Assembly: GCA_017473335.1 (NCBI GenBank)
Contig: JAFULN010000009.1
Location: forward strand, 1 to 64,000
DNA length: 64,000 nucleotides
Reading direction: 5' to 3'
From: Erysipelotrichaceae bacterium
GTDB taxonomy: Bacteria; Bacillota_I; Bacilli_A; Erysipelotrichales; Erysipelotrichaceae
Shown: positions 2,239 to 25,778 of the stretch, one piece after another
Position numbering within the stretch: position 1 is the first letter of the stretch
Layout of the letters: each line of letters begins with the position of its first letter
Position numbers and translations under genes: made by a program
The notes under the pieces: generated by a model
Seen by the model: only the letters and a program-made list of their open reading frames with translations
Told to the model about the DNA's origin: nothing
Database searches by the model: none

Positions 2239-2281
2239 ATTCTATCCTCCTTGACTCTTTTAGTTTAAACCTGTAAGTAGC

Positions 2282-3094
2282 TTACAGGTCAAACTTTTCC
2301 TCAGGGATTTTGTACGTTAACACGACTCTATGAACAAATTCATCATTTTCCATATAACTCATATGCACTCTTCCGACAATATCTTCAGTAATATCAATTT
2401 TTCTGCGTTTCAACTCCTGAAGTAAAGGAAGAAGATCTTTTTTTGTCAGCTCAAATGGATTTTTTGTATTCAAATATTGATAAACAACTTTCCCTGACTC
2501 AGTACTTTCTACCCAATCAGGCAAGTTGATCTTCAATAACTCTCGATTCTCTTCAATGATTCCAAGTCCAATGCGAATATCAAGGTCATCCCCATCATTC
2601 ATAATGCTCTGTTTTGTCACTTTAATCGCAACATAAGAAAACGGCATCACTGACGCTAATGTTTCTATCGTCTCATTTAAGCACTCATGTGGTTTCTCTT
2701 TATTTCCAATATGACATATATTATAGGTTACAGGTCGATACTGAACAGTTACAGAAGAATCTTCATTCTGAAATAAATCAAAGTGCTTCTTTATTGCTTT
2801 CAAACGAGTCAAAAGAATCTGTTTTCTTTTAATCTCTGTTTCTAAGTTTTCAATGGTCTTTTCCATATGACGATCAATCGTATCAAATGATTCTCCAATG
2901 GCCTTTACAGAATCATCCACGCTCATCTCAAAGCTTCTCAGCATCTGAGCATGATATATATTTAATGCATCTGTCATGTCATAATCTCGATAATTATTTT
3001 CTTTTCTATCCGAATTGATCAGCCCTTTGCGATCATAATATCGAATCTTGCTGTCAGGAATGCCAATCAATTTAGAAAATTCATTTACTTTCAT
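2282..3094 (-). CDS. MerR-family transcriptional regulator
   Basis: About 270 residues. The N-terminus (VNEFSKLIGIPDSKIRYYD) is the MerR winged HTH, followed by a coiled-coil segment (residues ~75-115) and a C-terminal region of ~150 residues resembling GyrI-like or other ligand-sensing domains. An upstream GTG (3103) also opens the frame, but AGGTGATAAGC is well spaced for the ATG at 3094, which I choose. It lies directly upstream of the fumarate reductase-like gene on the same strand, so it is the natural candidate regulator of that gene, perhaps sensing the substrate. No metal-binding Cys pair is seen, which argues against a metal-responsive MerR. Confidence 0.85.
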   Translation of the reverse strand: MKVNEFSKLIGIPDSKIRYYDRKGLINSDRKENNYRDYDMTDALNIYHAQMLRSFEMSVDDSVKAIGESFDTIDRHMEKTIENLETEIKRKQILLTRLKAIKKHFDLFQNEDSSVTVQYRPVTYNICHIGNKEKPHECLNETIETLASVMPFSYVAIKVTKQSIMNDGDDLDIRIGLGIIEENRELLKINLPDWVESTESGKVVYQYLNTKNPFELTKKDLLPLLQELKRRKIDITEDIVGRVHMSYMENDEFVHRVVLTYKIPEEKFDL

Positions 3095-3260
3095 GCTTAT
3101 CACCTATTTTCATCAACAACGACCCTAACTTGTGAATTTTTGTACAATATAAAAAACATTATCACTATCTATCACTTTTGTCTATACAAAAAGGCTCTCT
3201 TTTTGAGTTTCCTGGATAATTCTTTTCAACAAAGAAAAAAGCCCTTTTTCAAGGGCTTAG
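3095..3260. other. Noncoding gap between merR and the integrated element
   Basis: Chromosomal DNA that would originally have lain downstream of the tRNA-Leu gene. It holds the merR promoter region (minus strand) and, at its right end, the tRNA terminator hairpin. No gene is seen. Confidence 0.5.
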
Positions 3261-3285
3261 TTAACAAATGGTGCGGATGACAGGA
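3221..3285. repeat. attL: left direct repeat of the integrated element
   Basis: Positions 3221-3285 match 6621-6685 at an exact offset of 3,400 bases, with three mismatches in 65. The core 3261-3285 (25 bases, starting TTAACAAATGGTGCGG) is identical in both and includes the last 17 bases of tRNA-Leu with CCA. Identity stops abruptly at 3286/6686, as expected for an attachment site. Confidence 0.9.
3239..3258 (-). terminator. tRNA-type terminator hairpin in attL
   Basis: The arms AAGCCCTT and AAGGGCTT form a perfect hairpin with a T-run on the minus strand. It is the original terminator of tRNA-Leu, now separated from the gene by the insertion. Confidence 0.7.
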
Positions 3286-3367
3286 TTCGAAAATATGGTA
3301 AAATCCGATAAAATCCAACTCAAAAACCATCATTTTTCGACAAAATTCGACCGAATTTGAGATGATT

Positions 3368-3400
3368 CTTCTCAAAATCTTCTCAAAAAACTTCTCAAAT
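3368..3400. repeat. Three direct repeats CTTCTCAAAA, candidate integrase arm sites (left)
   Basis: CTTCTCAAAA at 3368-3377 and 3379-3388, and CTTCTCAAAT at 3391-3400, spaced 11 and 12 bases, about one helical turn. The same decamer recurs beside the right att (6611-6620 and, as CTTCTCAACA, 6622-6631). Repeats of this type flanking both att sites commonly bind the integrase N-terminal domain; that function is inferred. Confidence 0.55.
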
Positions 3401-3446
3401 TTATGCAAATATTTGCAAATATGTGAAATTATGTAGGAATTTTTTG

Positions 3447-3474
3447 TTGATAATTTCTAGGAGTTCGATATAAT
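3447..3474 (+). promoter_or_regulatory. Promoter of the RHH gene
   Basis: TTGATA (3447-3452), 16-base spacer, TATAAT (3469-3474), followed by AAGGAG and an ATG at 3497. The preceding A/T-rich repeats (TGCAAATAT twice at about 3404-3423) could be operator sites for the RHH protein. Confidence 0.6.
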
Positions 3475-3496
3475 TTAATTAAGGAGTGAACAAGAA

Positions 3497-3757
3497 ATGA
3501 AAGTAGATAAGAAAACAAGAATACAAATATCACTAACTCCAGAACTCGATGATAGAGTTAACAAACTAGCTGATAAGATGGGAGTAAGCAAACCCCAGCT
3601 ATGTTCCATGCTCGTTGCTCAACAGTTTGACATTTTCGAAAAGACATGGGAAATTATGCAATCCCCTGACTTCTTCAGTAAAGTGTTTAAGCTTGGTGAA
3701 GCAACTGGCGGACAACTCGTAGATACTGTTATGTCTACCGTAAAACCTAAGAAATAA
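3497..3757 (+). CDS. Ribbon-helix-helix (CopG/Arc-like) protein of the element
   Basis: 86 residues. TRIQISLTPELDDRVNKLAD is a typical ribbon-helix-helix start (beta strand, then helix A), with MGVSKPQLCSML as helix B; the C-terminal half is helical and unassigned. RBS TAAGGAG, 10 bases before ATG. As the first gene of the element, just before the origin and rep, it most likely represses its own promoter or rep, acting as a copy-number or maintenance regulator like plasmid CopG; this role is inferred. Confidence 0.75.
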   Translation: MKVDKKTRIQISLTPELDDRVNKLADKMGVSKPQLCSMLVAQQFDIFEKTWEIMQSPDFFSKVFKLGEATGGQLVDTVMSTVKPKK

Positions 3758-9277: not shown

Positions 9278-10129
9278 ATTCAGATCAACAAAGTCATTGA
9301 ACTAATTCAAAGCTGGGAAGGAAATCAATCTAAGTTCTATTATCATAAATCTCGATTATTACGTCGTCTTAATCGACCAATGGATGCAATTCATACGATT
9401 GATGAACTCACTGAAAAGTACGGAAATGATGATGTTTATCAGGAAAAATTTGAAATCTATTGTCAATTTGGTCTTTGGGATGATGCAGCTGAGCTGTTAG
9501 CTCAATGGAAGAAAAGCGGTTCTAAAAAGGCAAGACAGGCTGCTGCTGAACTTGATTTAAAACTGTACACCGGAAAAATCGATGAAGCTCACGCAGAGAT
9601 GATGACTTCATCAAAAAAACTAAACGCAAATGATTATGAACGATTAGATTTATTAATCAATGAACTGTATGGTAAAGAAGAACCTCAGATGACAATATGG
9701 TTAAAAAGAGCTGCATCACGTCAGGATAAAACCCATGAACTTATGAATATGGCACAAGTACAGTGGTGGAATGAACACTATGACAAAGCCCGTGAATATG
9801 CTCAACAAGCCCTGATACAAATTGACAAGCTGCTTCCAGACAAGAAGAAGACTGAAGCTTTGTATCGTGGACGCCGTGCACTGTGTCTGGCAATTCTAGG
9901 ACGTTTTGAAGAAGCAGTAAAGGAACTTGAAATTGTCCGCAAACTACCTCTATGTGAACACTGCAATTACTGCAGCTGTAAAGATGCAGATATTTTTGAA
10001 GCCAACATGGAAGAAATCCGCGGAAATTGGAAAAACGCACTCAGCCTTCATACACAAGGCGCAAAACAATGGCCAGATGACTTGGACTTTGTATCTGGTG
10101 CACGCCGCATGAAAAGAAAGGAGCTCTAA
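9278..10129 (+). pseudogene. J-like/TPR protein, C-terminal part after the stop
   Basis: Codons 9278-10129 stay in frame with the upstream part and continue the helical repeats, including a Cys-rich stretch (CEHCNYCSCKD). The first ATG (9380) has no ribosome binding site, so separate translation is unlikely. The stop TAA at 10127-10129 is followed one base later by the ATG of the Hsp70 gene, so the two were translationally coupled in the intact operon. Confidence 0.7.
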
Positions 10130-10130
10130 G

Positions 10131-11834
10131 ATGATCATTGGTATTGATTTAGGAACCACCAACAGTCTAGCTGCCTGCTTCAAAGATGGAAATGTTGAAA
10201 TCATTCCAAATCGATTAGGAAAAAAACTGACTCCTTCCATCGTTAGCATTGATGAAGACGGCACTGTTTATGTCGGTGAAACCGCAAAAGAAAGAGCTAT
10301 GCTGCATCCTTTGGAATCTGCTCGAGTCTTTAAGCGCAGCATGGGAACCAACAAAGAGTTTCAGCTAGGAAATCAGACATTTACTGCTGAAGAACTATCT
10401 AGTTTGGTACTGCGCAGTCTAAAAGAAGATGCAGAAGCTTATTTAAATGAAGAAGTTACAGAAGCAATTATTAGTGTTCCTGCTTATTTTAATGACCTTC
10501 AGCGAAAGACAACAAAACAAGCAGGTGAACTTGCTGGTTTAAAAGTCAGCCGTATTATCAACGAACCAACTGCTGCAGCCCTTGCTTATGGCATGCACCA
10601 GCAAGCCAAAGACTCTCGTTATTTAGTTTTCGATTTAGGCGGAGGTACTTTTGATGTATCTATCCTAGAGCTTTATGGTTCTATTATGGAAGTTCACGCA
10701 ATCGCTGGTGATAACTTCATCGGTGGAGAAGACTTCACGGCTTTATTGTGTTCCATGTTTTTTGAACATACACAAATCGCACCGGAATCATTAGATCTGA
10801 GAACTCTTCATGAAGTAATCAAAACTGCAGAAGCATGCAAATGTGCTTTTTCAGATCAGCATGAAATCACCATGAGCTGCACCATCCACAATCAAACTTA
10901 CAAGATGAATTTAACTTTAGAAGAATATGAAGATGCATGTGCTCCATTACTAGAAAAACTGCGTCGACCTATTGAAAGAAGCTTAAAAGATGCTCATCTT
11001 GGACTCAGTGATATTGATCAGATTGTGTTAGTCGGTGGTGCAACACGTCTTCCAATCGTGCAGCGATTTGTAGAACGACTGTTTAACCGCACACCTGAAA
11101 AGCTCGTCGATCCTGATTATGCCGTGGTGTTAGGTGCTGCAATTCAATGTGGTATGAAAGAACGTCAAAAAGAAATTCAGGAAATCATCTTAACTGATGT
11201 ATGTCCATATACGCTAGGGACAGAAGTTGTGGTCAATAACGGTTTCTTTGAAGAACGTGGTCACTATCTGCCAATCATTGAAAGAAACACTGTCATACCC
11301 GTCAGCAGAACTCAAACTGTCTATACGGCATATGACAATCAGACGCAAGTGAACATTAAAGTTCTTCAAGGTGAAAGCAGAATGGCTCATCACAATCTCT
11401 ATTTAGGGGAAGTAGAAGTACCTGTACCTGCTGGCCCAAAAGGAAAAGAAGCTATCAGTATCACTTATACCTATGACATCAACTCTTTGCTTGAAGTTGA
11501 AGTCTTTGTCCATTCTACAGGCGTACGTAAAATCATAATGATTCAAAACGAAATTACACGCATCAGTGATGAAGAAGCAAAAGAACGAATGAAAAAACTT
11601 CAATATCTGAAACAAAATCCACGATTTGACGAAGTCAATCGATTGCAGATTTTACGTGGTGAACGTCTGTATGAAGAAATCCCTGAAATGCGTAATGAAA
11701 TCGACAACGCTATGATGAACTTTGAACAAGCTCTTTTAAAACAGGATCGTTTAAAAATCGAACAGTCACGCAAACAGCTCACAAAATTATTAGATAAAAT
11801 AGAATTTCATCTCAATCAAGATCATCAGCTGTAA
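10131..11834 (+). CDS. hscC: HscC-type Hsp70 chaperone
   Basis: 567 residues, shorter than DnaK (~610). ATPase motifs: IGIDLGTTNS (3-12), VPAYFND (116-122), INEPTAAALAYG (143-154), VFDLGGGTFD (166-175), VLVGGATRLP (~302). The substrate-binding beta domain is present, the lid is short and there is no EEVD-like tail, as in the HscC subfamily. RBS AAAGGAG lies inside the preceding gene. It pairs with the adjacent J-like/TPR gene, forming a specialised chaperone module separate from dnaK-dnaJ-grpE. Clients are unknown. Confidence 0.88.
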   Translation: MIIGIDLGTTNSLAACFKDGNVEIIPNRLGKKLTPSIVSIDEDGTVYVGETAKERAMLHPLESARVFKRSMGTNKEFQLGNQTFTAEELSSLVLRSLKEDAEAYLNEEVTEAIISVPAYFNDLQRKTTKQAGELAGLKVSRIINEPTAAALAYGMHQQAKDSRYLVFDLGGGTFDVSILELYGSIMEVHAIAGDNFIGGEDFTALLCSMFFEHTQIAPESLDLRTLHEVIKTAEACKCAFSDQHEITMSCTIHNQTYKMNLTLEEYEDACAPLLEKLRRPIERSLKDAHLGLSDIDQIVLVGGATRLPIVQRFVERLFNRTPEKLVDPDYAVVLGAAIQCGMKERQKEIQEIILTDVCPYTLGTEVVVNNGFFEERGHYLPIIERNTVIPVSRTQTVYTAYDNQTQVNIKVLQGESRMAHHNLYLGEVEVPVPAGPKGKEAISITYTYDINSLLEVEVFVHSTGVRKIIMIQNEITRISDEEAKERMKKLQYLKQNPRFDEVNRLQILRGERLYEEIPEMRNEIDNAMMNFEQALLKQDRLKIEQSRKQLTKLLDKIEFHLNQDHQL

Positions 11835-12078: not shown

Positions 12079-13418
12079 ATGAGTTGTCATTCTCAGGATA
12101 TTCTTTTTAGTTTGAATTCAATCATTGATTCTTTACCTCAACGCCCTGAATTTAATTCTCTCATTTATGACCCAAAGAAGAATTTTTTCAGAGAATCTAA
12201 ATTCGGCTTTTCCAATATTATCTACTTTCTTTTTTCTGCTGGTCCTTCAGCTTTGAAAAATGAACTCAAATCTTATTCTCTGGCTACGGAATCAACAGTA
12301 ACTCCCAGTGTTGTTGTTCAATCCAGATCCAAAATCAAACCTGCTTTATTCCGATTTATCTTTGATCAGTTCAATCAAAAGTATCCATGTAATAATACTT
12401 ATAAGGGATATCAGTTGATAGCTGTTGATGGAAGTAAATCAAATATTCCTTATAATTCTAAAGATCGTTCTTCTGTTCATCTTGGAAAATCTAAAGCTAA
12501 TGGTGAAACAGGAAAAGGATATAATCAAGTCCATTTAAGTACATCTTTTGATATTCTTAATAATCGTTATCTCGACTGCATTATTAAAGATATCACTTTA
12601 TATAATGAAATCTTGGAGATTAATGAATTAGTTGAGCGATATTCTGGACCACCTGCCATTTTTATCGCAGACAGAGGATATGAAAGTTAAAATCTCATTG
12701 AATATTTGCGTAAAAAAACGAAATTTATATTGCGCGTAAAAGACATAGACTCTTGTACAACTGGACTCATGAAAGGACTCATATTCCCAAACGATGAATT
12801 TGACGTGGATTATCGGCTGATTTTCACAAATCACAATCGCAAAGAATACCAGCAGCAGAAGTCTCTTTATAAAATCATCCAAAAAAGTCAATGCTTTGAT
12901 TTTCTTGATGATCAAAAACATTTCTATGAAACTACTTGGAGAATCGTGATATTTAAACTTGAAGACAGTTACGAGATAATTGTCACCAATCTTAGTAGAA
13001 ATGAATTTGACAGTTCTGAAATCAAGTATCTGTACAATCTTAGATGGAAAACTGAAACTGCCTATCGTTATTTAAAACACGATATCAATCTCACTCATTT
13101 TATTAGCCGTAAAAAGCCTTTATCCATCAAGAAATCTGGGTGAAATTAACCCTTTATAATCTTAGTTCTCTCATTACAAATCTTTTAGAAGATACAAGGA
13201 AAGAGAAAAAGAAGAAAAAATACATTCATAAAATCAATTTTTCCAATGCAGCACATTTAATTACTAATTCTATCAAACTGATAAAAAGAAAAGGCGGAAT
13301 ACCGCCTGATCTGGACGCATAGATAATCAAAGATACTTCTCCTGTTAGAGAAGGCAGAAGGTATAAGCGAATCCCACATTCACAAACCTATTCTGCATCT
13401 AATTATCGTGCTTATTAA
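12079..13418 (+). pseudogene. IS4-type transposase, broken
   Basis: DDE transposase: first Asp in AVDGSKSNIP, second in FIADRGYES, and the R-E-K signature in LRWKTETAYRYLKHD. An in-frame TAA at 12688-12690, right after the second Asp, is followed by the same frame. A frameshift lies near 13140 and another near 13320, with the C-terminal sequence IPHSQTYSASNYRAY running to a stop at 13416-13418. RBS TGGGGTGA. Not functional as a single protein. Confidence 0.85.
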
Positions 13419-13746: not shown

Positions 13747-13792
13747 AGGCTGTGACGCCTAGAGAGTTTGGTTTCTCTATTTGTCACAGCCT
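13747..13792 (-). terminator. Terminator of the giant surface-protein gene
   Basis: AGGCTGTGAC and GTCACAGCCT arms with an inner AGAGA/TCTCT stem. On the minus strand the hairpin is followed by a seven-T run. Confidence 0.85.
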
Positions 13793-13813: not shown

Positions 13814-16800
13814 CTATGAAGATTTCTTTTTCTTGTTCAATACAATAATCATTGCCGCAAGTGATGCAACCATTAGTCCCATCCAGCCAAACAAGTTAGA
13901 ATCATCTGATGTGTTTGGAGTATCTGGAATTACTGGAGCATTTGCAATCACAAATTCACAGTTTGCAGTATATTCTTCATCAAGAAGTTCATATACCACT
14001 GTCAATGTATGTGTTCCAACACTCAAGGTTTTCAGATAGCTTGACTTCAATGTGATGATTGTGCTTCCAGAAACTGCTGTATAGTGTTCTGGATCAATCA
14101 TTTCTCCATCTACTTTGACTGCATTGAACAGTCTGAACAATCCGTTGGCAGTAAACTTAAGGTCACTTGAAGTTCCCACTGTATACTTTCCATTGTGACC
14201 CTCAATGATCTGATAAGAAGTGATGGATTCAATCAGTTGTTTTACATCTTCTTCGACCATATTGCCTAGAAGCTCTTTCTGACGATCATCCAATGCTTCA
14301 TATCTTTCTACAACATCAATAATTTCATCAATCACTGCTTCATGATCAGGAAGCGTTGACTTATCTTGGATACTTTCGACCATTTCGACTGCACGATTGA
14401 CACCTTCATTCACTTTATTTGTTTCTGAGATATCTTCAATGATTGAATTGACACGATTCAATTCTTCCTGTGCAGTCTGCTTTTCAGCTTCAGTATAGTT
14501 TTCGTTGTTTTCATCTACAATCTCTTTCAAATCTTCGACTGCCTTTTCAAGATCTTCTTTGTCCGTAATCAGATAATTCTCAGCAGTTGTATCCTCTGCA
14601 GACTTCAAAGCTTCATCAAACGCTTCACTGTTTTCTTCGATTTCTTTCAGAAGAGTTTCTGCTTCTGCTTTTGTTTCTTCAAGTACTTTTCGCTGTTCTT
14701 CTGTCAGATTGTCTGTTTCAAGAAGTTTATCGATAGATTCAACATTAGCTTCGATGGCTTCCTTTTCAGCTGAAGTGATATCTGCTTCTGTTTTTTCTTT
14801 GTATCCTTCTTGTGAAACTGCTGTTTCTACTGCCTCTTTCGTTTCTTCGATGACTTTTTCAAGTTCTTCAATCTGATCAAGCTTCTGCTGAGCTGCTTCT
14901 TTTTCTTCTTCTGTGTAGTTATCGCTATTTACGATATCTTCCAGTTTTTCTTTTGCTTCAGCGAGTTCTTCTGCATCATCTGCAGTGACTTCTTCTGCAT
15001 CAATTTCTGGCATAGAATCCTTAGCTTCTTCCAGTGCTGCTTTGTTATCATCAATCTGCTGCGCTAGTTCCTTTGCGCCTTCAAGAGCATCTTCTAATGT
15101 AGCTTTCTGCTCTTCAGAAAGGTTTGTATCCTCCAGTTTAGATGTAAGTTCAGCAATCAACTGATCAACTACTTCCTCATCTGTAGATTTCACAGTGTTC
15201 TGATCATAGGCTGCAAGTGTATCTTCTAGCGCTTTGACCTCTGCTGCTGTGTCTTCCACAACTTTCTGCAGTTCATCGATGCTGTTCTGTGCATCTTTCA
15301 GCAGCTGCTTTTCTTCTTCTGCTGCATATGTTGTATCTATTGCATCCAATACTGCTTCAACTTCTGCAAGCGCCTCAGAATCATCAGCTGTTACATCTTC
15401 TTTTGTCAGATCTTTGATTGTTTCTGTCAATGAACTGATTGGTTTCATGAAGACAGTCACGGTTGCACTGTTACCAGCTTTGTCTGTTGCGACAACGACA
15501 TATTCCTGGTCTACATTACCATCAAGAATCTGTCTTGAGGCGGTTGCTCCATTGATAAAATATCTGAACAGATGTGCATCCGTAGCACTGAAGCTCTGTG
15601 TTGTGTAGTATGTTGCACCATCCGTGATACCTGTGATCACAGGAGCAGCAAAGTCATAAACTGCACCATCTGTCGACAGATATGTTACATTACCTGCCTT
15701 ATCTGTGATACGTACAAAGTACACAAACTGTTTTGCATCTTCTGCTGTAACTGCAACACCACCACTAGGCATCATAGTCCAATCTGTGATTGCCTTGATT
15801 TCACTTTCTGTCAGTGCCTGATCTGCGAATGAATATTCTACACTATCAACACCAGAAAGCACATCTTCAGCTTCTGCTTTGACTGTAACTTCCGCCTTGA
15901 AGAACAGATTGAAAGAAATTGTATTCAGCAATTCTTCCCAGATGTTTCTTTCGTCAAAATAGACTTTGCCAACAGGTGCAATCGTATCGCTAACAGTTAC
16001 AATTGCTGTTCCATTTCCAGACATATAGTTTTGTGTATCATCAGGCACAAAAGTGAATTGGACTTCATTATTGCCCCATACTAAAGATTCTGTGCTTGTC
16101 ACAGCAAATTCCCCTGTCAGTGCATTGCCATCCACACCTTTTGCACCTTCAATTTGAACGTCTATCAATTCCGTACTGTTGTCTACAATCGATGCAGTCA
16201 CACTACTTAGATCAGGTGCTGCCTTTGTAATTGTAAATTTGGATTCAGTATCAAGTGTTATTGTATAGTTAGGATTTGACAGTGTACCAATTGTGAAGTC
16301 ATATTCGCCCACACCTTCACCATCAATACGTCCAAGTTTTCCAGTCAGTTTGTCATTTCCATACAACTGGCCTTCTATGATTTCATAATCAAACTCAGGA
16401 TCTGTCGAGCCAAAAACTTTTGCCTGTTCTGTTTTTGGCTTTACTGTAATTGATGCAGGTTTGATCGACCATGTGGTAGTGAATGTATCCTTCACCATAT
16501 AGTTAAACGCATCTGCTCCACCCAAACCAATACCTGTAATCGTTACTATCTTATTTTCGCCAACATTAGCGTCTTCAAAATATGCTGTGTAATCATCAAT
16601 GATCAATTTAACATCATCTCCAACGACAAGATTTTCGCCTCCACTTGCAAGCTTGATAGGCAATTCCATTGTTCCATTATAAGGTTTAGGATTTGGGGCA
16701 AAAAAACTGAATATTGGAGTAAGTTCTCTTTGTTCAATCTCAAACACCGCTTCTGCCTTTGCATCATTGATTGTTATTGCAGCTGTATATACTCCTGCTT

Positions 16801-19800
16801 CAGATGGTGCAATAGCACTGTTATAAGTCATACCTCCACAAGTAGTACCTGTATAAGCAATGATATGATTTTTGTCGCCATCCCAGTCATCACCATAAAT
16901 CACAGCTGCCTTGTCATAAACTGAGCCATGATAAATGATATCTTCAGCAGTAATCGTTACAGAAGCCGTTTCAATCACTTCATTGCAGAAGGCACATTCA
17001 GAAACAATTGTATTCTTTTGATCACCAAGACAGCTCTGCAAATCATGTGTCGTCATACTGCCACAGATAAATTCTGCCTGATCAGAAATCGTAAAACTTG
17101 ATGCCTTCAGTGCCTTGCCATATTTGTCAATGACATTCTTAGGTTCTCCGATACTGTCCTCTGTATATCCTCCTGGTTTGACCATGAAGCCAACATCATT
17201 TACATCATATCCATTCCACTCTCCACCAGTAGCCTTTACAGTACCACCAGTGATTTCAATCTCATTACCAGCAAACATAGCCGCTGTTGCACTGGCTTTG
17301 GAAATACTGCTTAAATTATAACTTGTGGTAATGTTGGCATAACCGCCACTAGTTGTTACAGTACCTCCGCTGATTTGAATATTCTGATTTGCATAAATAC
17401 CATAAGTACCTTTAGGCGCATATTCATCTTCATAATTTACTTTTGACTCTCCGCTTGCTGCAACAGAACCACCAGTGATCATTATATTTTCAGCCACAAG
17501 GAAATCAGCTTCTACTGTTCCACCTGTAATTGTAAGATTGCCAGACAAACAGATGCCTGCAGTCACTGTACCACCAGTAACACTCAAACTACCTTCACCC
17601 GCAATGCTGCTGTTGACATATATTTTTTCCTGTTCCAGATAACCTAACTGTTGTCCTTCAGCAGTCAATGAACCTGTAGAACTTTCTGCAACGGTTAATG
17701 AAGCACTATTTTCAATCACAATAGCTGCAACATCTTCAGAGCCTGTTAAATGATTATCACCCACAAGAACAAGTGTAATATCATCTTCACTAATTCTTAA
17801 TGCCGGAATACTTTCATTCAAATCCGCAGCATTGATGACAGCATCTGAAAGAGTCAGTGTATGCGTATCAGCATCATAGCTGACAGTGCCATCTGCAAGC
17901 ACATCCGCCGCATTGTCACTGCTTACCTGTACGTTACCTACAAAGATGTTGTAATAAGTAAAGTCACAGTTTTCGCACTTATTATCCACAATGCTATGAT
18001 CACCTGGCTCACCATAGTATTCATTACAAGTTGTGCACTTATATCCCTTACAAGTCTGAGTACCACCTGTATGGTTACATTGCCACTGAGCATAGATAGT
18101 TATATCCTCACTAGCCCCTACGACAATTGCGCCGTTGATACGACTTTCTGGATATACCTTTCCACTTGCATCGCGCCAGTCGACAAAGGTATATCCTGGA
18201 CGTGTGATACTCACATAATGATTCAGGAAAACATCGCTACCAATTGGAAACTCCTGTACCCAATAACTTCCATCCTCCGCAAAGCCAGTGTCACCTGGTT
18301 CAGGAAATCCATCTTCAGGCTTGATGACACCACCATTGGCATCAAACTTGATTTCCACATAGTGATCGCAATCGATATATAAATTAGCAGCAGGAAGATC
18401 CTCTGCCTCAATGTTCAGTACACCATTTTCATAAGTATAGTTGATTGAAGTATAAGGTGCATCCGCCAATTGTACACCAGTGATTCTCAGATGGGTATTC
18501 TCTGGTACAGTAAAAGTCTGAGTAAATGTCTGACCATAAGTGCTGATACTTTGCATCGGCGTATTTGACAATACCCAACTTACAGTGAAGGTTTCCACAG
18601 CGCCGCAGGCTGCACAAACATGAGTTACCTCATCAAAGACATGGCTATTCTCGCCACAAATCCATTTCTTATTTTCATCATCCCATGTATACGACTTTTC
18701 ACCGGTATACACAGTTCCATCCTTTGGAGCATCCAATATGCTAAAATCATCAGGAAGTATGATTGTACCCTGATTAATAACTGTTCCTTCAAAAGCAATA
18801 TCATCTTTTGAACATGCAGATAAATCAAGAGTCACTCCCTCATTCACATTCAAAGTAGTCCCTGAAGGAACAGTGAAGGTATAGATCAAACCGTCAATAT
18901 TTGGAACAATCAGGTTATGAGTCAAAGTAGTGCTGCCATAAACCTGAACTGCTGAAACCGTATTACTCTTTCTCACTGCACCCAAACCATTGATAGTACC
19001 ATCTGCCTGTATCTCATCAGCAATCAGACCAATGTCAGAATAATAAATAGATTTGCCAGTTGCAGCATTTAACACCGCATCGGATGCAACCGTGATTATT
19101 CCACCAACGTTAACAGCGATAGAACTATTGCTTCCACCACCTGATTGGATTGTCACAGTACCACTTTGAATGAGTAAATTACCTTCTACTTCTATACCAT
19201 ATAGACCATCTCTATCTTCATTACTAGCTCCCTGCATGAATAGTTCTGCACTTTCATCCATTCCAATCATCGTCACTGAAGATGTTGAAAACAACACCTG
19301 ACCTTCCAAACTATACAAATTTGTCAAAGAGTTCTTTCCATAGAAGCGAATTGTCAAAGGAACAGACGCAGAAATCACACCAACTTCATCTACCTCTCCA
19401 ATATCACTTTGGCTTGTTGCATTGTGCAGCTCAAGAACTGCAGTTTCTGTATCAGAAGCTGGGATGACAAGCATATATCCGTTTCCAGATTTATAGTATG
19501 TATATCGATTGAATTCATTGATAACTCCACCGTACTTATCAACTTCAGTCAAATCTCCGCCATCATAATACAACTGATTTTCAATAATGATTCCAGCTTC
19601 TGTACCAATTTTTACAGTACCGTTACAAGTAATTGTATAATCACCAGCATCTAGATAAGCATAAGAGGCAAACGTAATCTCATCTTCTATGATTACATCC
19701 GTAAGCAATACAATGGTATCGCCTTCTTTTGCATGCTGAGCCGCTTCTTTCAAATTAGCGTAATTCGTAGTTCCAATCTTAGCCTGAGCCTTTAAGTTAC

Positions 19801-22630
19801 ACTTGCAGCTTTCACTTTCTGTGAAATCATGATCTTCAATCACGTCAGATTGACATTCTGAACACTTGAAACTATGTGTACCATTGCCGTTATCCATCAC
19901 ATCGTTCGTATTGCTGCTATGATCACAATAAGTTTCACACTTATTACAGAATCCATTTTCCCACTGATGCTCAGCATAATTCAGCGTTACTGTAGCATCA
20001 AAAGCATTGGATGCAGCCATCATACCACACGGCACATTCACTAAGGTTAAAGATGTACAATCTTTAAATACGCCCTTTTCAACACTCACTTTATTCGTCA
20101 GGAATGTAACTTCTGTAAGTGCTGTACAGAGAACAAACGCATATTCAGAGATAGACGTTACATTTTCTGGAATCGTGATTTCTTTCAGTGACGTACACTC
20201 TGCAAATGCACGCCCTCCAATAGACTGTATAGTGGATGGGATTGTTATGCTTTCGATAGATTCACAGAAAGAAAAAGCACCCCTAGGAATCTCTGTGAGA
20301 CCAGCTCCAACATTCACAGTTTTCAAATTCTTACTGCCTGCGAAAGCGTTGTCTCCCATTTCAGTCACATTGTCCGCAATGGTTACCTCTATCAAATTTT
20401 TTGTTCTATAGAAAGCTTCTTCTTCAATCTTTTCCACACTATCAGGAATGGTATAGGAGTTTCCCTCCTTCATTGCAGGATAATGGATTAGTGTCTTGCC
20501 ATCTTTACTGAAAAGAACACCATCCACTGACTTGTAAACTGTATTTTCCTCTGCTACATCAAAGCTCTCCAATGCATTACACGTACTAAAGGCATCATCC
20601 GCAATTGATGTTACGGATGCAGGGATAACCACTTCTTTCAAGGAAGAACATATCGCAAACGTCACAGATTCAATGGTTGTTATCTTGCCTGGAATACTGA
20701 TTTTTTTAAGTGAGATACACTGAAAGAAAGCAGTATCACCAATTGATTCTAAGCTTTCCGGCAATGTGATTTCTGACAGTTTAGCACAACCCCAGAATGC
20801 ATCAGAGCCAATTGTTTTTAGCCCCTCAGAAATATTCACCTTTTCTAAATGTTTTACATAATAGAAAGCATTAGACTCGATTGTCTCTACAGTGTCTGGA
20901 ATCGTAAATTCTGCCTCCATTTTATTTTCAGGGTATTTCATTAGAGTTTTTCCATCTTTTGTAAACAGTACTCCATCAATCGATTTATAAACGGCATTGG
21001 CATCATCTACATGGATTGCAGTCAAAGATGGAATGCTATGATTCCAAAACACCCTTCTACCTATAGTCGATACACTGGCAGAGATATTGACTTCTTCCAG
21101 ATTGTTACAATCAATAAATGAACAGTCGCCGATAGAAGTTACACCATCTTCTATGATTACTTTTTTGATGTCATCACGGTGACTCTTCCATGGAACATCA
21201 GAAGATTTAAAATTATTCATAGCACCCGTGCCACTAATTGTGAGTGTGCCATCAGCCAGTGTCCATTTGACATATTTATTACTCGCATCGCAATAGCCAC
21301 TGATCAGTCCACAAACTGTGCAGACATGATCAGCATCAAAGCTATGCTCATTCATCTCACCATAACTTGTTTTACAAAAATCGCAGATTGCCTGTTTTAT
21401 GCAGGTAGCTGTACCTCCACTATGCGCTTGGTTATCTACCACAGCATCGCAGTTCGCACATGTCGCATCGTGAGTACCATCGCCATTGGAAGTCCAATCA
21501 TAGTCATGAGTCAAAGCAATGCTCTTCCATGTCAGATCGTAATCATTGTTTGATTTGAACCACGTTTTATTTTCGACATCAGGTTTGTATGCATCTTCTG
21601 CCTTCAGTTGCCCACAGTCTAAGATAAGATCACAGCCTCCAACATTTACTCCAACCCCATCAAATACATCCCACTCACTTTGATAAATTGAAGTAACAAT
21701 TGCGCCAAAAGTGATGGTCTGTAAATGATAACAGCCATAGAAAGCTCCATCCCCAACAGTTGTCACTTTAGGAAGTGTTATACTTTTAAGTGCATAGGCT
21801 TCATAGAATTCATGATCTACAATTTCTGTAGCATCCGAAAGAATTAAATCGACTCTACCGTAATATTGACTCTCTTCTTCTGAATTATCAGCCAAGAGGT
21901 AAAGTGCTTCAGCATAAGCAGGAATATCACCAAAATAGGAAGCGTATATAGCGTGTTCAGTTCCATGAATTACAATAGTTGACATTCCGCTATCCACATA
22001 TCCCCTGATTGTATCCACCAAAGCAGTAATATCATCTTCAGTTGCATCAGTTTTGCCACCTAATGTACTATCGATCGTCAAAGTTCCTGCTTCAGCATCA
22101 ACTACATACCAGTTAGTATCATAAACCACAGCGCTGTCTGTACCGCTGCACTGAGTGTAGTCTAAACCACAGATATCACACCAGATATTTGCTTCTGTAC
22201 ATTTCTCAGCACATTCACATGTTGGTGTCTCTGGTGCAGTGTACTGTGGACAGTTTGTTGCATGTTTCTCATTATCTGTTTCACATGTACATAGTGTTTC
22301 TAAAAGATTCTGTGCATCTAACTGTTCCTGTTGTTCTAGAGCGGTTGTGCATTCTGTACATTCATAGTGACACTCATGTCCTTCCACTGCTTCAATGTAT
22401 CCACAGGTTTCATCATGCATGATGTGCACACATGTCTCTGCACAGGTTTCATCACATTCATGAGTACATTCATGGCCTTCAACAGCTTTTTGATAATGAC
22501 ATTCTTCAGTATGTACTGGACGATGCTCACAAAGTCCTGTCTCTTCTGCTTTGACAGGAACTGTGATGTAATTCAGCATCATATTTAAGATAAGAAAACT
22601 TTTTAACACTTTATCCAATGTTCGGTTCAT
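13814..22630 (-). CDS. Giant multidomain cell-wall protein (2,938 aa)
   Basis: Order of parts: signal peptide (1-28, cut after VKA); Cys/His-rich region (~33-165) with repeats such as VEGHECTHECDETC; BspA-type leucine-rich repeats (~280-350 and ~487-880); CxxC-type segments between modules; an InlB-like Flg_new repeat (~1420-1515, ending ITIYAQW); stacked GGTV beta-helix-like repeats (~1680-1810); an MBG-type domain (~2058-2138); Ig-like domains (~2210-2395); a long acidic alpha-helical region of FIVAR-like repeats (~2400-2810); a last beta domain; and a C-terminal PNTSDDS, hydrophobic helix and KKKK tail, a non-canonical sortase-type anchor. Probably a surface adhesin or matrix protein. RBS GGAGGAAAG lies inside tetR, whose end overlaps the start by 20 bases. 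Confidence 0.9.
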   Translation of the reverse strand: MNRTLDKVLKSFLILNMMLNYITVPVKAEETGLCEHRPVHTEECHYQKAVEGHECTHECDETCAETCVHIMHDETCGYIEAVEGHECHYECTECTTALEQQEQLDAQNLLETLCTCETDNEKHATNCPQYTAPETPTCECAEKCTEANIWCDICGLDYTQCSGTDSAVVYDTNWYVVDAEAGTLTIDSTLGGKTDATEDDITALVDTIRGYVDSGMSTIVIHGTEHAIYASYFGDIPAYAEALYLLADNSEEESQYYGRVDLILSDATEIVDHEFYEAYALKSITLPKVTTVGDGAFYGCYHLQTITFGAIVTSIYQSEWDVFDGVGVNVGGCDLILDCGQLKAEDAYKPDVENKTWFKSNNDYDLTWKSIALTHDYDWTSNGDGTHDATCANCDAVVDNQAHSGGTATCIKQAICDFCKTSYGEMNEHSFDADHVCTVCGLISGYCDASNKYVKWTLADGTLTISGTGAMNNFKSSDVPWKSHRDDIKKVIIEDGVTSIGDCSFIDCNNLEEVNISASVSTIGRRVFWNHSIPSLTAIHVDDANAVYKSIDGVLFTKDGKTLMKYPENKMEAEFTIPDTVETIESNAFYYVKHLEKVNISEGLKTIGSDAFWGCAKLSEITLPESLESIGDTAFFQCISLKKISIPGKITTIESVTFAICSSLKEVVIPASVTSIADDAFSTCNALESFDVAEENTVYKSVDGVLFSKDGKTLIHYPAMKEGNSYTIPDSVEKIEEEAFYRTKNLIEVTIADNVTEMGDNAFAGSKNLKTVNVGAGLTEIPRGAFSFCESIESITIPSTIQSIGGRAFAECTSLKEITIPENVTSISEYAFVLCTALTEVTFLTNKVSVEKGVFKDCTSLTLVNVPCGMMAASNAFDATVTLNYAEHQWENGFCNKCETYCDHSSNTNDVMDNGNGTHSFKCSECQSDVIEDHDFTESESCKCNLKAQAKIGTTNYANLKEAAQHAKEGDTIVLLTDVIIEDEITFASYAYLDAGDYTITCNGTVKIGTEAGIIIENQLYYDGGDLTEVDKYGGVINEFNRYTYYKSGNGYMLVIPASDTETAVLELHNATSQSDIGEVDEVGVISASVPLTIRFYGKNSLTNLYSLEGQVLFSTSSVTMIGMDESAELFMQGASNEDRDGLYGIEVEGNLLIQSGTVTIQSGGGSNSSIAVNVGGIITVASDAVLNAATGKSIYYSDIGLIADEIQADGTINGLGAVRKSNTVSAVQVYGSTTLTHNLIVPNIDGLIYTFTVPSGTTLNVNEGVTLDLSACSKDDIAFEGTVINQGTIILPDDFSILDAPKDGTVYTGEKSYTWDDENKKWICGENSHVFDEVTHVCAACGAVETFTVSWVLSNTPMQSISTYGQTFTQTFTVPENTHLRITGVQLADAPYTSINYTYENGVLNIEAEDLPAANLYIDCDHYVEIKFDANGGVIKPEDGFPEPGDTGFAEDGSYWVQEFPIGSDVFLNHYVSITRPGYTFVDWRDASGKVYPESRINGAIVVGASEDITIYAQWQCNHTGGTQTCKGYKCTTCNEYYGEPGDHSIVDNKCENCDFTYYNIFVGNVQVSSDNAADVLADGTVSYDADTHTLTLSDAVINAADLNESIPALRISEDDITLVLVGDNHLTGSEDVAAIVIENSASLTVAESSTGSLTAEGQQLGYLEQEKIYVNSSIAGEGSLSVTGGTVTAGICLSGNLTITGGTVEADFLVAENIMITGGSVAASGESKVNYEDEYAPKGTYGIYANQNIQISGGTVTTSGGYANITTSYNLSSISKASATAAMFAGNEIEITGGTVKATGGEWNGYDVNDVGFMVKPGGYTEDSIGEPKNVIDKYGKALKASSFTISDQAEFICGSMTTHDLQSCLGDQKNTIVSECAFCNEVIETASVTITAEDIIYHGSVYDKAAVIYGDDWDGDKNHIIAYTGTTCGGMTYNSAIAPSEAGVYTAAITINDAKAEAVFEIEQRELTPIFSFFAPNPKPYNGTMELPIKLASGGENLVVGDDVKLIIDDYTAYFEDANVGENKIVTITGIGLGGADAFNYMVKDTFTTTWSIKPASITVKPKTEQAKVFGSTDPEFDYEIIEGQLYGNDKLTGKLGRIDGEGVGEYDFTIGTLSNPNYTITLDTESKFTITKAAPDLSSVTASIVDNSTELIDVQIEGAKGVDGNALTGEFAVTSTESLVWGNNEVQFTFVPDDTQNYMSGNGTAIVTVSDTIAPVGKVYFDERNIWEELLNTISFNLFFKAEVTVKAEAEDVLSGVDSVEYSFADQALTESEIKAITDWTMMPSGGVAVTAEDAKQFVYFVRITDKAGNVTYLSTDGAVYDFAAPVITGITDGATYYTTQSFSATDAHLFRYFINGATASRQILDGNVDQEYVVVATDKAGNSATVTVFMKPISSLTETIKDLTKEDVTADDSEALAEVEAVLDAIDTTYAAEEEKQLLKDAQNSIDELQKVVEDTAAEVKALEDTLAAYDQNTVKSTDEEVVDQLIAELTSKLEDTNLSEEQKATLEDALEGAKELAQQIDDNKAALEEAKDSMPEIDAEEVTADDAEELAEAKEKLEDIVNSDNYTEEEKEAAQQKLDQIEELEKVIEETKEAVETAVSQEGYKEKTEADITSAEKEAIEANVESIDKLLETDNLTEEQRKVLEETKAEAETLLKEIEENSEAFDEALKSAEDTTAENYLITDKEDLEKAVEDLKEIVDENNENYTEAEKQTAQEELNRVNSIIEDISETNKVNEGVNRAVEMVESIQDKSTLPDHEAVIDEIIDVVERYEALDDRQKELLGNMVEEDVKQLIESITSYQIIEGHNGKYTVGTSSDLKFTANGLFRLFNAVKVDGEMIDPEHYTAVSGSTIITLKSSYLKTLSVGTHTLTVVYELLDEEYTANCEFVIANAPVIPDTPNTSDDSNLFGWMGLMVASLAAMIIVLNKKKKSS

Positions 22631-23360
22631 ATTCTTTCCTCCGTTGAGTTTGTAAATCCATCAATACCTGCAGACTTGTTTTTTCAACATAATCTTTGAA
22701 GTCATTCAACATTCCATGTCCTATTTTGTGATAATCCATAGATAAGACTCTGTCGATTTTTGTTTTTCTCAATTCTTCAGGCACATTGTAGATACTAAGT
22801 ATCGTATCGAGTGCTCCTTCAATTCTTAATTCAAGCGACACAGCTCCATGAGTACTCATCAATGTTGAGTATTCAATCCCAGAAACAAGGATCTCAGCTT
22901 CTTCAAATCTTGCATTGCTCCAGCTTTGACAATATTCTTTGAACACCTCTTTGGCTCGTGCTGTATCGTTCTTACGAATGATTTCTAAACAAAGCGGACT
23001 TCTGTAAGCAGAGATATAGAAATCTTTGGTGATCTCATCATCTTCACACATGGATGCCATTGCAGCCAATTCAAGACAAATTGCCATGATGGAGCTGTAG
23101 CCTTCACTGATTTCTCTTTCAACCATTTCCTGTTGAAATCCGCCAAGAAGTTCAACCAATTCTGCCAGCATATCTTCTTTTGCAGGATAGTGAAATGTTA
23201 AGTTCCCTGGACTGATTTTTAATTCTTTGGCGATATAGCTTACATGCGTATTTGTATATCCATCTTTAAGGAATCTTCTTGCAGCAGCTCTCATAATTTC
23301 AAGCTTTCTCAATTCGCCTTTATATCTTCTACCCAAGTCATCACTTCCTTGTCTATTCAT
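22611..23360 (-). CDS. TetR-family regulator coupled to the surface-protein gene
   Basis: 249 residues. The N-terminal HTH (AARRFLKDGYTNTHVSYIAK...ISPGNLTFHY) is that of TetR proteins; the C-terminal ~170 residues are an unassigned helical ligand/dimer domain. The stop codon lies 20 bases inside the surface-protein gene, so the two are one transcript and likely translationally coupled. It probably controls its own promoter and thus the adhesin. No good RBS precedes the annotated ATG; a start slightly downstream is possible. Confidence 0.85.
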   Translation of the reverse strand: MNRQGSDDLGRRYKGELRKLEIMRAAARRFLKDGYTNTHVSYIAKELKISPGNLTFHYPAKEDMLAELVELLGGFQQEMVEREISEGYSSIMAICLELAAMASMCEDDEITKDFYISAYRSPLCLEIIRKNDTARAKEVFKEYCQSWSNARFEEAEILVSGIEYSTLMSTHGAVSLELRIEGALDTILSIYNVPEELRKTKIDRVLSMDYHKIGHGMLNDFKDYVEKTSLQVLMDLQTQRRKEYEPNIG

Positions 23361-23390
23361 TCAAAGGATAATCTTTCCAAACCTACACAC

Positions 23391-23420
23391 ATTATAGTGT
23401 CGATACTAATATGTACACAA
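23391..23420 (-). promoter_or_regulatory. Promoter of the tetR-adhesin operon
   Basis: Minus strand: TTGTGT (23420-23415), 18-base spacer, TATAAT (23396-23391). The -10 lies inside the palindrome ACACATTATAGTGT, a plausible TetR operator. Confidence 0.55.
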
Positions 23421-23516
23421 GAAGTATTTGATGAAATTTCTTTTTATTGAATGTAAACCATGACTGATGACTTGTAATCTAACATTGTTCAGGTCACAAG
23501 AGGAAATAACCCAGAG

Positions 23517-23539
23517 AAAAAGCAGGTCAATTGACCTGC
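23517..23539 (-). terminator. Terminator of the SIS-domain gene
   Basis: The perfect palindrome GCAGGTCAATTGACCTGC (23522-23539) is followed on the minus strand by TTTTTC. Confidence 0.75.
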
Positions 23540-23558
23540 CAATTCTTTCTTATCTCGC

Positions 23559-24254
23559 TTACCATCCAAATTCTTTGTAATGAGGATAAACTTCTGCATT
23601 GTTGTAGTCTACACCACCTGGGAAGTTTACGCTCTTGAGAAGGCGTGGAGTCTTGCCTCGCTTCATCATTTCTTCCAGTACTACCGCAGTCACTGACCAC
23701 AAAATATACGAGCTGGCAATTCCGCTTGCTGCTGCAAAGTTAGCTTCAATGCCTTCCACTTCTAGCATTGCCTCAGCTGCTGGTGCACAGTTGTCCAGTG
23801 TCAAATCTACAAAATCGATCAGTTTCTGTCCCGATGAATGAACTGGATCGACACTTCTTGCGTAACTGAGCGAACTCATTGCAATGACTTTGATACCCAT
23901 CTTTTTGGCTTCCCATGCCAAATCAACAACATGCTTTGTACGTCCTGAAACTGATCCTACAAACAGTACATCGCCTGGCTTGATTGTGGATGCCTTCAAA
24001 ATGTACGCTCCCAAACCTTCCATGTTCAAATCCATGTCGCTGCTGTCTCTTTCTCTGGCATCAGATTTCACATCTAAATTGTAATGGAAAGTTCTATAAA
24101 ATACTGGACCTCCACCTCAATTGAATAAATCCATTTCAATAGAATGGCAAATACCGCTCAGATAAATATTCCCGCCTGCATCAATGGTATCTGCGATCAT
24201 TTTCCCTGCAGTTATGATATTTTCTCTTTGTGTGGATTTGATTTGATCAAACAA
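23559..24254 (-). pseudogene. SIS-domain sugar-phosphate isomerase-like protein, interrupted
   Basis: The downstream part (from GTG 24071) encodes 170 residues with SIS motifs (PGDVLFVGSVSGRTKHVVDLA). Upstream in the same frame lies DAGGNIYLSGICHSIEMDLFN, then TGA at 24119-24117, then GGGPVFYRTFHYNLD, so a single CGA-to-TGA type change interrupts an otherwise intact ~231-codon gene. A TTG at 24254 is the likeliest original start. Relatives act on phosphosugars or regulate their use; no substrate is evident. Confidence 0.7.
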
Positions 24255-24285
24255 AAATGTCTTGATCCTGTCACCTCTTTTGAAA

Positions 24286-24620
24286 TGATTCAACTGATCG
24301 AATCTCTTCAGTTACAGTATATTATTCTTACAACTTCCCAAAGCTGCATCAGTATGCATCATGATGAACTGTTTGAATATTATCAACAATTCAACATTGA
24401 TTTAGATGCCATTCGCACTCAATACAATTTAAACGAGATTCTGCCTTATGCCTTAAAAATCGAAACTATGCCACATACTCCTAAAGAACGTGAAAACATC
24501 AAAGAGAAAGCAGAATCTTTAGGACTCTTTGTCGAAATCAAAGAAACTGCGAATGAAATTACGCTTTCCGTCAGTGAAGACGGAGCTGCACATGCACTGA
24601 ACATATTATTTCATCTTTAA
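24286..24620 (+). CDS. Unidentified partial or remnant protein
   Basis: About 111 residues from the first internal ATG; the frame is open further back, over the start of the divergent SIS gene. The sequence looks like real coding (acidic, helix/strand alternation, e.g. LGLFVEIKETANEITLSVSE) but there is no RBS and I recognise no family. It is probably the C-terminal remnant of a gene cut by rearrangement; the truncated IS begins 22 bases past its stop. Confidence 0.35.
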
Positions 24621-24641
24621 AAAAAGACAGGAAATGATGAA

Positions 24642-25745
24642 CCAATGTCATTAAGTTAAGACATTGAAATGTAAAATCGAGCCTAATCACGAAAGTGATG
24701 GGGCTCTTTTTTTGTGTGAATAGCATATAAAAACAAAAAAACACTTGACAAGAATATTGTCGGAATAAAGACATAATCCGAAGGAAATTGTAGGAGGTAT
24801 TTTTACACTATGATTTCTAATGTTCCAAATTATGTCTTATCTACCCTTGATAAATGTATTGATCAAGTCAAATCCAACCTTCGTCCATATGTCACTGATC
24901 CAATCTCTGATTTCACAAGAGAACGAAAGCTTAATTTCGAACAGTTGGTCAAATTCTATCTTCAACTTCAAGCGAAATCCAATAACTCAGAACTTAATGA
25001 CTATTTCAATAAGGGTGAATTGATGCCATCTTCTTCTGAACTCAGCCAAGCTAAAGGCAAAGTATCATACAAAGCTTTTGAACGTATCTTTCACAAATTT
25101 AACCATTCATTCGAATTGAGTAAAACATGGAAAGGCTTTTACATTCTGACTTGTGATGGTTCCGACGTGAATATTCCTTCTGATCACAATGACATTGAAA
25201 CACTTTGCCAAAATGGAACTGCAAAATCATATAATCAATTTCATCTGAATGCACTGTATGACTGTCAAAATGAAATTTATTTGGATGTATCCATTGATAG
25301 TTCGACAAAAACCAGAGAGTGTGATGCGATGAAACAAATGATAAATCGTGGTTTTTATCCCAAGAAATCCATAATAATTGCCGATCGAGGATATGAAAAG
25401 TATGAATTATTTGCGGATTGTAATGAAAAGAATCAGAAATTCGTTGTCCGAGTGAAAGACAAGGATTCAAACGGAATACTTTCAACTGTGGATCTACCTG
25501 ATGGTGAGTTTGATACTGTCATCACTCGCAAACTCACAAGAAAACAGACAAAAGAAACTAAAGAAAACAAAGGGTTTGTCCTTTTGATGAATCATTCTGA
25601 ATTCTCTTATCTTGGAATCAACGATGAATATTATGAACTTTCATTTAGAGTGGTGTGCTTCAAAATCACAGATGATACTTATGAATATCTAATCACGAAT
25701 TTAGATACTACAGAAATTTCAATCCAGGAATTAAAATTATTACTT
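24642..25745 (+). mobile_element. Truncated IS4-type insertion sequence, copy 2
   Basis: The left end CAATGTCATTAAGTTAAGA (24642-24660) is identical to that of copy 1, followed likewise by a terminator and transposase gene. The right end is missing: homology to copy 1 stops near 25745, where unrelated sequence begins. The two transposases are clearly diverged, so these are different members of one family. Confidence 0.8.
24679..24713 (+). terminator. Terminator inside IS copy 2
   Basis: GAGCC/GGCTC outer arms and ATCAC/GTGAT inner arms around GAAA, followed by a T-run. Same position as in copy 1. Confidence 0.85.
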
Positions 25746-25778
25746 GTAATAATTCGTTCATTTCCTTTTGTACAGTGA
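24810..25778 (+). pseudogene. IS4-type transposase, C-terminally truncated
   Basis: 322 codons. CDGSDVNIP and IIADRGYEKYELF carry the first two catalytic Asp residues; the frame runs off after ITNLDTTEISIQELK into unrelated residues before the expected R-E-K signature with the catalytic Glu. RBS GTAGGAGGT. The truncation removes the active site. Confidence 0.85.

Follow-up and report, generated by a model that had tools for sequence, protein, structure and literature searches.

A predicted mosaic BspA-type leucine-rich-repeat surface protein of an Erysipelotrichaceae bacterium with a Cys/His-rich, metal-binding-like head

Introduction

Anaerobic Gram-positive bacteria are generally believed to exclude cysteine from exported proteins. 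The protein described here is encoded in a 64,000-nucleotide stretch of an Erysipelotrichaceae genome (contig JAFULN010000009.1 of GCA_017473335.1), hereafter the window, and has 67 Cys and 48 His in total. Its closest described relatives fall into several groups. BspA-type leucine-rich-repeat (LRR) proteins carry LRR_5 repeats and include the solved structures 4h09, 4gt6 and PcpA (4cp6), and the LRR region of the window protein is strongly homologous to theirs. Beyond the LRR region, over which it was compared with the solved proteins, the window protein has CxxC linkers, a Cys/His head, a beta-helix, YDG/MBG domains, a sortase-type anchor and a BB8-like domain.

The IgA protease of Thomasclavelia ramosa (IgAse/ThomasA, 9qa6) has a C-terminal domain, placed in BB8, that is homologous to that of the window protein. 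Zinc-type spacers and a PxTG-like anchor are similarly placed in the two proteins (available text of PMC12237041 and PMC12402451). According to the available text of PMC12237041, IgAse has 24 Cys and no disulfides observed in experimental or predicted structures, its anchor is SPQTG, and the zinc sites of its ZBD1 and ZBD2 are putative, being predictions with two His and two Cys (three Cys and one His in one of them). The same text makes no mention of a comparable Cys/His head. Unlike IgAse, the window protein has no M64 peptidase family among its Pfam matches, and linker 1 of the window protein is not directly similar to IgAse.

Two further comparisons concern the linkers and the anchor. The Eubacterium eligens MucBP-domain protein WP_012740397.1 and surface proteins in gut phage records have the linker core GG-x2-TC-x5-C-x2-C in common with the window protein; compared over the CxxC segments and the protein ends, their flanking domains are different. 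Clostridioides difficile SrtB substrates combine a class B sortase with a Pro-x-Thr anchor, as in the window genome. SrtB specificity is (S/P)PXTG (available text of PMC5118464), and the window protein differs in having Thr before the Pro and Ser after the Thr.

Results

The gene and its surroundings

The adhesin gene has an ATG start and no internal stops, and it begins 7 bases behind a GGAGG (Table 1). The order of SIS-domain gene, regulator and adhesin start is kept in a same-genus genome, where the head is 98% identical. A second contig of the assembly (C75) carries the same head. A second gene copy was rejected, and C75 is read as a strain or unresolved contig because all of its 5,575 bases are 99.93% identical to window positions 19349-24923 (4 mismatches). 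This near-identity suggests that the assembly contains more than one strain. Transposase-like genes lie on both sides of the adhesin region (12079-13143 and 24810-25778). A DDE transposase domain is present in the right-hand gene. The left-hand gene is split into two frames and looks similar to the right-hand one by eye, with no Pfam match for its first piece. Farther left, at 9380-11834, a TPR protein gene immediately precedes a gene for a 567-aa Hsp70.

Table 1. Features of the adhesin gene and its flanks, in window coordinates.
Feature	Residues	Position	Strand	Basis
TetR-type regulator; overlaps adhesin start by 20 bases		22611..23360	-	ORF list and family match
GGAGG, likely adhesin ribosome-binding site, within 3' end of upstream tetR gene		22638..22642	-	sequence
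Whole adhesin gene, 2,938 aa		13814..22630	-	ORF and translation
Signal peptide	1-28	22547..22630	-	by eye
Head repeat unit 1	34-63	22442..22531	-	pattern and alignment
Head repeat unit 2	67-94	22349..22432	-	pattern and alignment
Third Cys cluster of head; full match only in same-genus genome	114-161	22148..22291	-	sequence and searches
Linker 1, three CxxC, HSGG-type module	370-450	21281..21523	-	sequence
Main BspA-type LRR region	about 448-885	19976..21289	-	Pfam and PDB search; outer borders by eye
Linker 2, two CxxC	886-950	19781..19975	-	sequence
No Pfam match, beta-helix-like by eye	951-1316	18683..19780	-	domain scan
Linker 3, one CxxC	1317-1348	18587..18682	-	sequence
Flg_new / List_Bact repeat	1473-1515	18086..18214	-	model matches
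Linker 4, two CxxC, HTGG-type module	1516-1558	17957..18085	-	sequence
Beta-helix repeat region	1560-1853	17072..17953	-	domain scan
Linker 5, one CxxC	1854-1886	16973..17071	-	sequence
YDG domain	1978-2049	16484..16699	-	Pfam
MBG_2 domain	2061-2127	16250..16450	-	Pfam
Weak Ig-like match (DUF7743/Big_3_2), below cut-off	2235-2326	15653..15928	-	Pfam
Cys-free, Glu/Lys-rich stalk; FIVAR below cut-off	2401-2800	14231..15430	-	sequence; helical by eye
Domain homologous to T. ramosa IgA protease C-terminal stretch (9qa6 976-1068), placed in BB8	2801-2895	13946..14230	-	PDB sequence search
Cell wall sorting signal: TPNTSDDS, hydrophobic stretch, KKKK tail		13823..13918	-	TIGR01167 and sequence
Terminator-like inverted repeat, then T run, 3' of adhesin gene		13748..13791	-	sequence

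The head contains two units of a Cys/His repeat

Cysteine is concentrated in the head, which has 19 Cys and 10 His in residues 34-161. The Cys share is 14.2% over residues 29-162 and 0.8% in the adhesin minus head and linkers; it is 1.8% over 36 other window genes chosen from the ORF list. The original prediction, a Cys-dense head with a repeating VEGHEC/CxxxC pattern, was borne out: VEGHEC occurs twice (residues 50-55 and 82-87), and the repeat resolves into a unit C-x-H-x(1-3)-H-x3-C-x-Y-x(6-8)-C-x3-C-x(2-3)-C. Two copies, starting at residues 34 and 67, fall within residues 34-94, and the whole protein holds no third copy. Among 200,000 shuffles of the head, scanned with a slightly looser pattern, one unit appeared in 6 and two units in 0. 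Seven aligned units from four proteins have eight invariant columns (C, H, H, C, Y, C, C, C), a count that displays the pattern and is no test of it because the rows were chosen for matching.

The head has no Pfam match, either in the window protein or in the 473-aa frame of a second head-bearing genome (G877, below). The unit profile gave no match in the PDB, and the single head query gave one weak match to a designed repeat protein (E 0.076). An AlphaFold2 model of the head had a mean pLDDT of 47 from a shallow alignment of 4 rows, too poor for fold or site geometry. Among the open-access papers listed for CXXC, zinc-ribbon or Cys-rich modules of gut surface proteins, no title or opening abstract described such a head. 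Judged from its sequence, the head is an unnamed Cys/His-rich repeat on an otherwise known combination of modules.

One reading of this composition is a disulfide-rich cap, with cysteines that would form extracellular pairs and lock the tip in the manner of EGF-like modules. The head looks exported and is Cys-dense, and some clostridial species have working DsbA and VKOR enzymes (available text of PMC12453122). However, neither the VKOR nor the DsbA family, the two thiol oxidase families searched, had a match in the window genome (94.7% complete, 86 contigs). The Cys numbers are odd, 19 per head and five per unit, and the two His of each unit are as invariant as the Cys. Disulfides are disfavored for these three reasons, and the 24-Cys IgAse, also from a gut anaerobe, has none observed in the available text of PMC12237041. 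A disulfide cap is considered improbable.

The head is found on mostly different proteins

The head was found in six genomes, the window genome included. In all six, its start lies no farther than about residue 110 of the frame and follows a hydrophobic stretch that is signal-like by eye. The remainder of the protein mostly differs, being LRR, SpaA/DUF7601 pilin-like, Flg_new or little but repeats. Of 145 relatives searched with the head of the window protein, 3 matched, its own genome counted. The other two, assigned by coordinates and translation, are a goat-cecum Erysipelotrichaceae MAG (L014), which has the same head as the BspA-LRR protein of the window, and an uncultured Erysipelotrichaceae MAG (L016), which has the head unit on a SpaA/DUF7601 pilin-like protein. 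The assignment of the window itself to Erysipelotrichaceae agrees with these neighbors. Among named genomes the pattern was matched 12 times, and 3 of these matches are relatives: L014, L016 and an Oscillospiraceae MAG (L015), whose 202-aa head frame is short and may be truncated.

Profile searches extended this set. Profile A1 matched 1 of 392 genomes in the phylum sample, the window genome itself. In the class sample around the L015 genome, profile A2 matched 10 of 391 (E up to 0.01) and profile A3 matched 3 of 391; two genomes of the 391 were accepted, G475 (the L015 genome) and G827. Eight A2 matches (E 0.0016-0.0086) were dropped because their frames with six or more Cys showed no such unit, and the A3 match in G775 was dropped at E 0.0078 with internal stops. 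Within the order of G827, A3 matched 2 of 67 genomes. These are G827, with the head on a 2,036-aa frame with Flg_new, and G877, with the head on a 473-aa frame that has 3 model matches and about six copies by eye. The third Cys cluster as query matched 4 of 391 genomes, all weakly (E 0.0003-0.005). The window genome has a further weak third head match (E 0.053) with one stop.

The original prediction named a lack of same-head homologues and a cytosolic location as counterevidence. The findings point the other way, since head homologues exist on proteins with an N terminus that is signal-like by eye. The window head and the G877 head had no match in plasmids, phages or IMG/VR, and unit model A3 had none in IMG/VR; this lack of matches rules against a phage or plasmid origin of the head. 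The distribution fits a mobile tip module, as far as sequence comparison goes.

Two further readings of the head bear on these data. It might be a remnant or a low-information Cys-rich repeat with neither fold nor function. Rarity and patchiness (two accepted genomes among 391 in the class sample) and the poor AlphaFold2 prediction would suit a remnant, but distant genomes share the Cys/His pattern despite variation at the other positions, and the head is 98% identical in the same-genus genome. A remnant is very unlikely. Alternatively, the head could capture a metal, zinc or some other, for nutrition or sensing, or could make zinc-dependent cell-cell contacts, in which case adhesion would follow luminal zinc. 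Such a role would draw on the density of Cys and His at the presumed distal tip, on several possible sites per head and on the greater number of unit copies in G877. Against it, zinc-transport and zinc-regulator families are absent among the seven flanking window genes scanned (two of which have no family at all), and the available text of PMC12237041 proposes that the IgAse zinc-type domains act as a spacer or hinge, or alternatively bind protein. Metal capture or contact is considered improbable.

CxxC linkers separate the later modules

The protein has 11 CxxC motifs, 2 in the head and 9 in five linkers, which agrees with the predicted CxxC segments between later modules. Linkers 1 and 4 have the common core H[ST]GG-x2-TC-x(4-5)-C-x2-C and are 44% identical across 39-41 aligned residues. 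AlphaFold2 on linker 1 gave a mean pLDDT of 47 from an alignment of 5 rows, too poor for a fold or for the geometry of sites. A search with linker 1 gave 2 plasmid records, both from E. eligens, and 4 phage records; of these, one plasmid protein and three phage records were examined. The E. eligens MucBP protein has 60 Cys and six copies of the linker core, one with Cys replacing the first His, and a GNIEYWYCxxC segment stands behind the last copy. In the phage record PV036458.1 (Oscillospirales; L049, 1289-4996), the last gene encodes an exported-looking protein of 1,235 residues with 37 Cys and one linker-core copy.

CxxC and HxHxxxC segments of similar kind are frequent in human-gut Lachnospiraceae proteins. 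This frequency was partly borne out by the linkers of E. eligens and the phage records and was not reflected in the genome samples searched for the head. A query made of the last E. eligens core copy and GNIEYWYCxxC matched 9qa6 residues 839-896 (E 5e-4). Linker 1 had no match to 9qa6 at E up to 1 or up to 10; linkers 2-5 were compared with the PDB through the whole-protein search. The link between the linkers and the IgAse zinc domains is therefore one of neighborhood and kind, with no direct homology. The claim that such segments are unusual for an exported Gram-positive protein is weakened by the similar segments in records of gut phages and in the surface protein of E. eligens, and by the putative zinc domains of the T. 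ramosa IgA protease (available text of PMC12237041).

The other modules are largely those of surface proteins

The predicted module list held in part. LRR_5 scored 286.3 bits against a gathering cut-off of 27.7 (E 2.7e-86), and YDG and MBG_2 were above their Pfam cut-offs, which upholds the LRR and MBG assignments. Beta_helix_3 scored 36.2 against 27 when its segment was scanned alone and 14.1 in the whole protein, so the beta-helix stands only for the isolated segment. Flg_new failed with the Pfam model (15.6 against 27) and just passed with TIGR02543 (21.2 against 20.95). The listed Ig-like matches (DUF7743/Big_3_2) were below cut-off, as was FIVAR (16.0 against a gathering cut-off of 29.2), and neither module is confirmed. 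The HupY/LrrG adhesin model NF047961 scored 93.4 bits against an equivalog cut-off of 1250. The LRR, YDG/MBG and beta-helix modules would suit an adhesin and do not prove one.

The C terminus and the sortase

Residues 2801-2895 match 9qa6 with E 2.5e-17 in the whole-protein search and E 1.1e-18 with the C-terminal piece. This domain is most likely BB8, an assignment made from the borders 1009-1100 in the available text of PMC12237041, whose numbering is offset from that of the chain. The sorting signal that follows has no canonical LPxTG letters, as predicted, and reads TPNTS; TPNTSDDS narrowly passes the LPXTG-anchor model TIGR01167 (16.5 against 15.9). The genome scan gave a single other anchor above the cut-off, VPNTGDDS, carried by a frame of 2,313 residues that has 3 Cys; a further match fell below it. 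In G877, two frames have the tails NPKTSDATN and NPKTGDATN, which differ at two residues. Ser for Gly is apparently a tolerated variation because that genome has both NPKTSD and NPKTGD tails. The anchor is thus non-LPxTG in its letters, and a separate anchor class is not upheld, given the model pass and the two G877 tails.

A sortase with PxTS preference had been proposed as a search target. The genome has two sortase (PF04203) matches, on contigs C35 and C39. The C35 protein is clearly class B (208.5 against a cut-off of 153.75), and the C39 match is below the cut-off at 73.5. These matches, the VPNTGDDS anchor and the paired G877 tails leave a new PxTS sortase class unsupported. In contig C39 (L038), within about 380 to 3735, a 906-residue pilin-like frame ending VPKMGLD overlaps the start of the sub-cut-off class B-like sortase frame.

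Discussion

The analysis agrees with the original prediction in reading the protein, from its sequence features, as a mosaic BspA-type LRR surface protein that is adhesin-like and has a metal-binding-like head. The fuller reading, which we consider probable, is a sortase-anchored BspA-type LRR mosaic with a Cys/His head at its tip and structural zinc in head and linkers. The protein would be exported by its signal peptide, and its C terminus is probably joined to peptidoglycan by the class B sortase of the genome. The BB8-like domain and the long helical stalk would hold the protein away from the wall, and the N-terminal Cys/His head would therefore be the tip.

Head and linkers most likely hold structural zinc. 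Every head unit would have two sites, one made of the two Cys and two His of C-x-H...H-x3-C and another, rich in Cys, made of C-x3-C-x(2-3)-C. At this Cys-rich site the fourth ligand is not conserved (Tyr or Phe region in unit 2 of L016 and in G827). In the reducing gut lumen, zinc would stiffen the protein and protect it from proteases, as disulfides do elsewhere.

A bolder proposal treats the head as a previously undescribed family of extracellular zinc modules that has moved between distant gut Firmicutes onto the tips of unrelated surface proteins, where it replaces disulfides and makes adhesion zinc-dependent. We regard this as unlikely; if true, adhesion would depend on luminal zinc and hence on host zinc withholding. 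Alongside the putative zinc domains of the T. ramosa IgA protease, the head offers a small, expressible module for testing metal stabilization. A conserved Cys/His tip module on differing surface proteins suggests metal-based stabilization of extracellular proteins in some gut Firmicutes.
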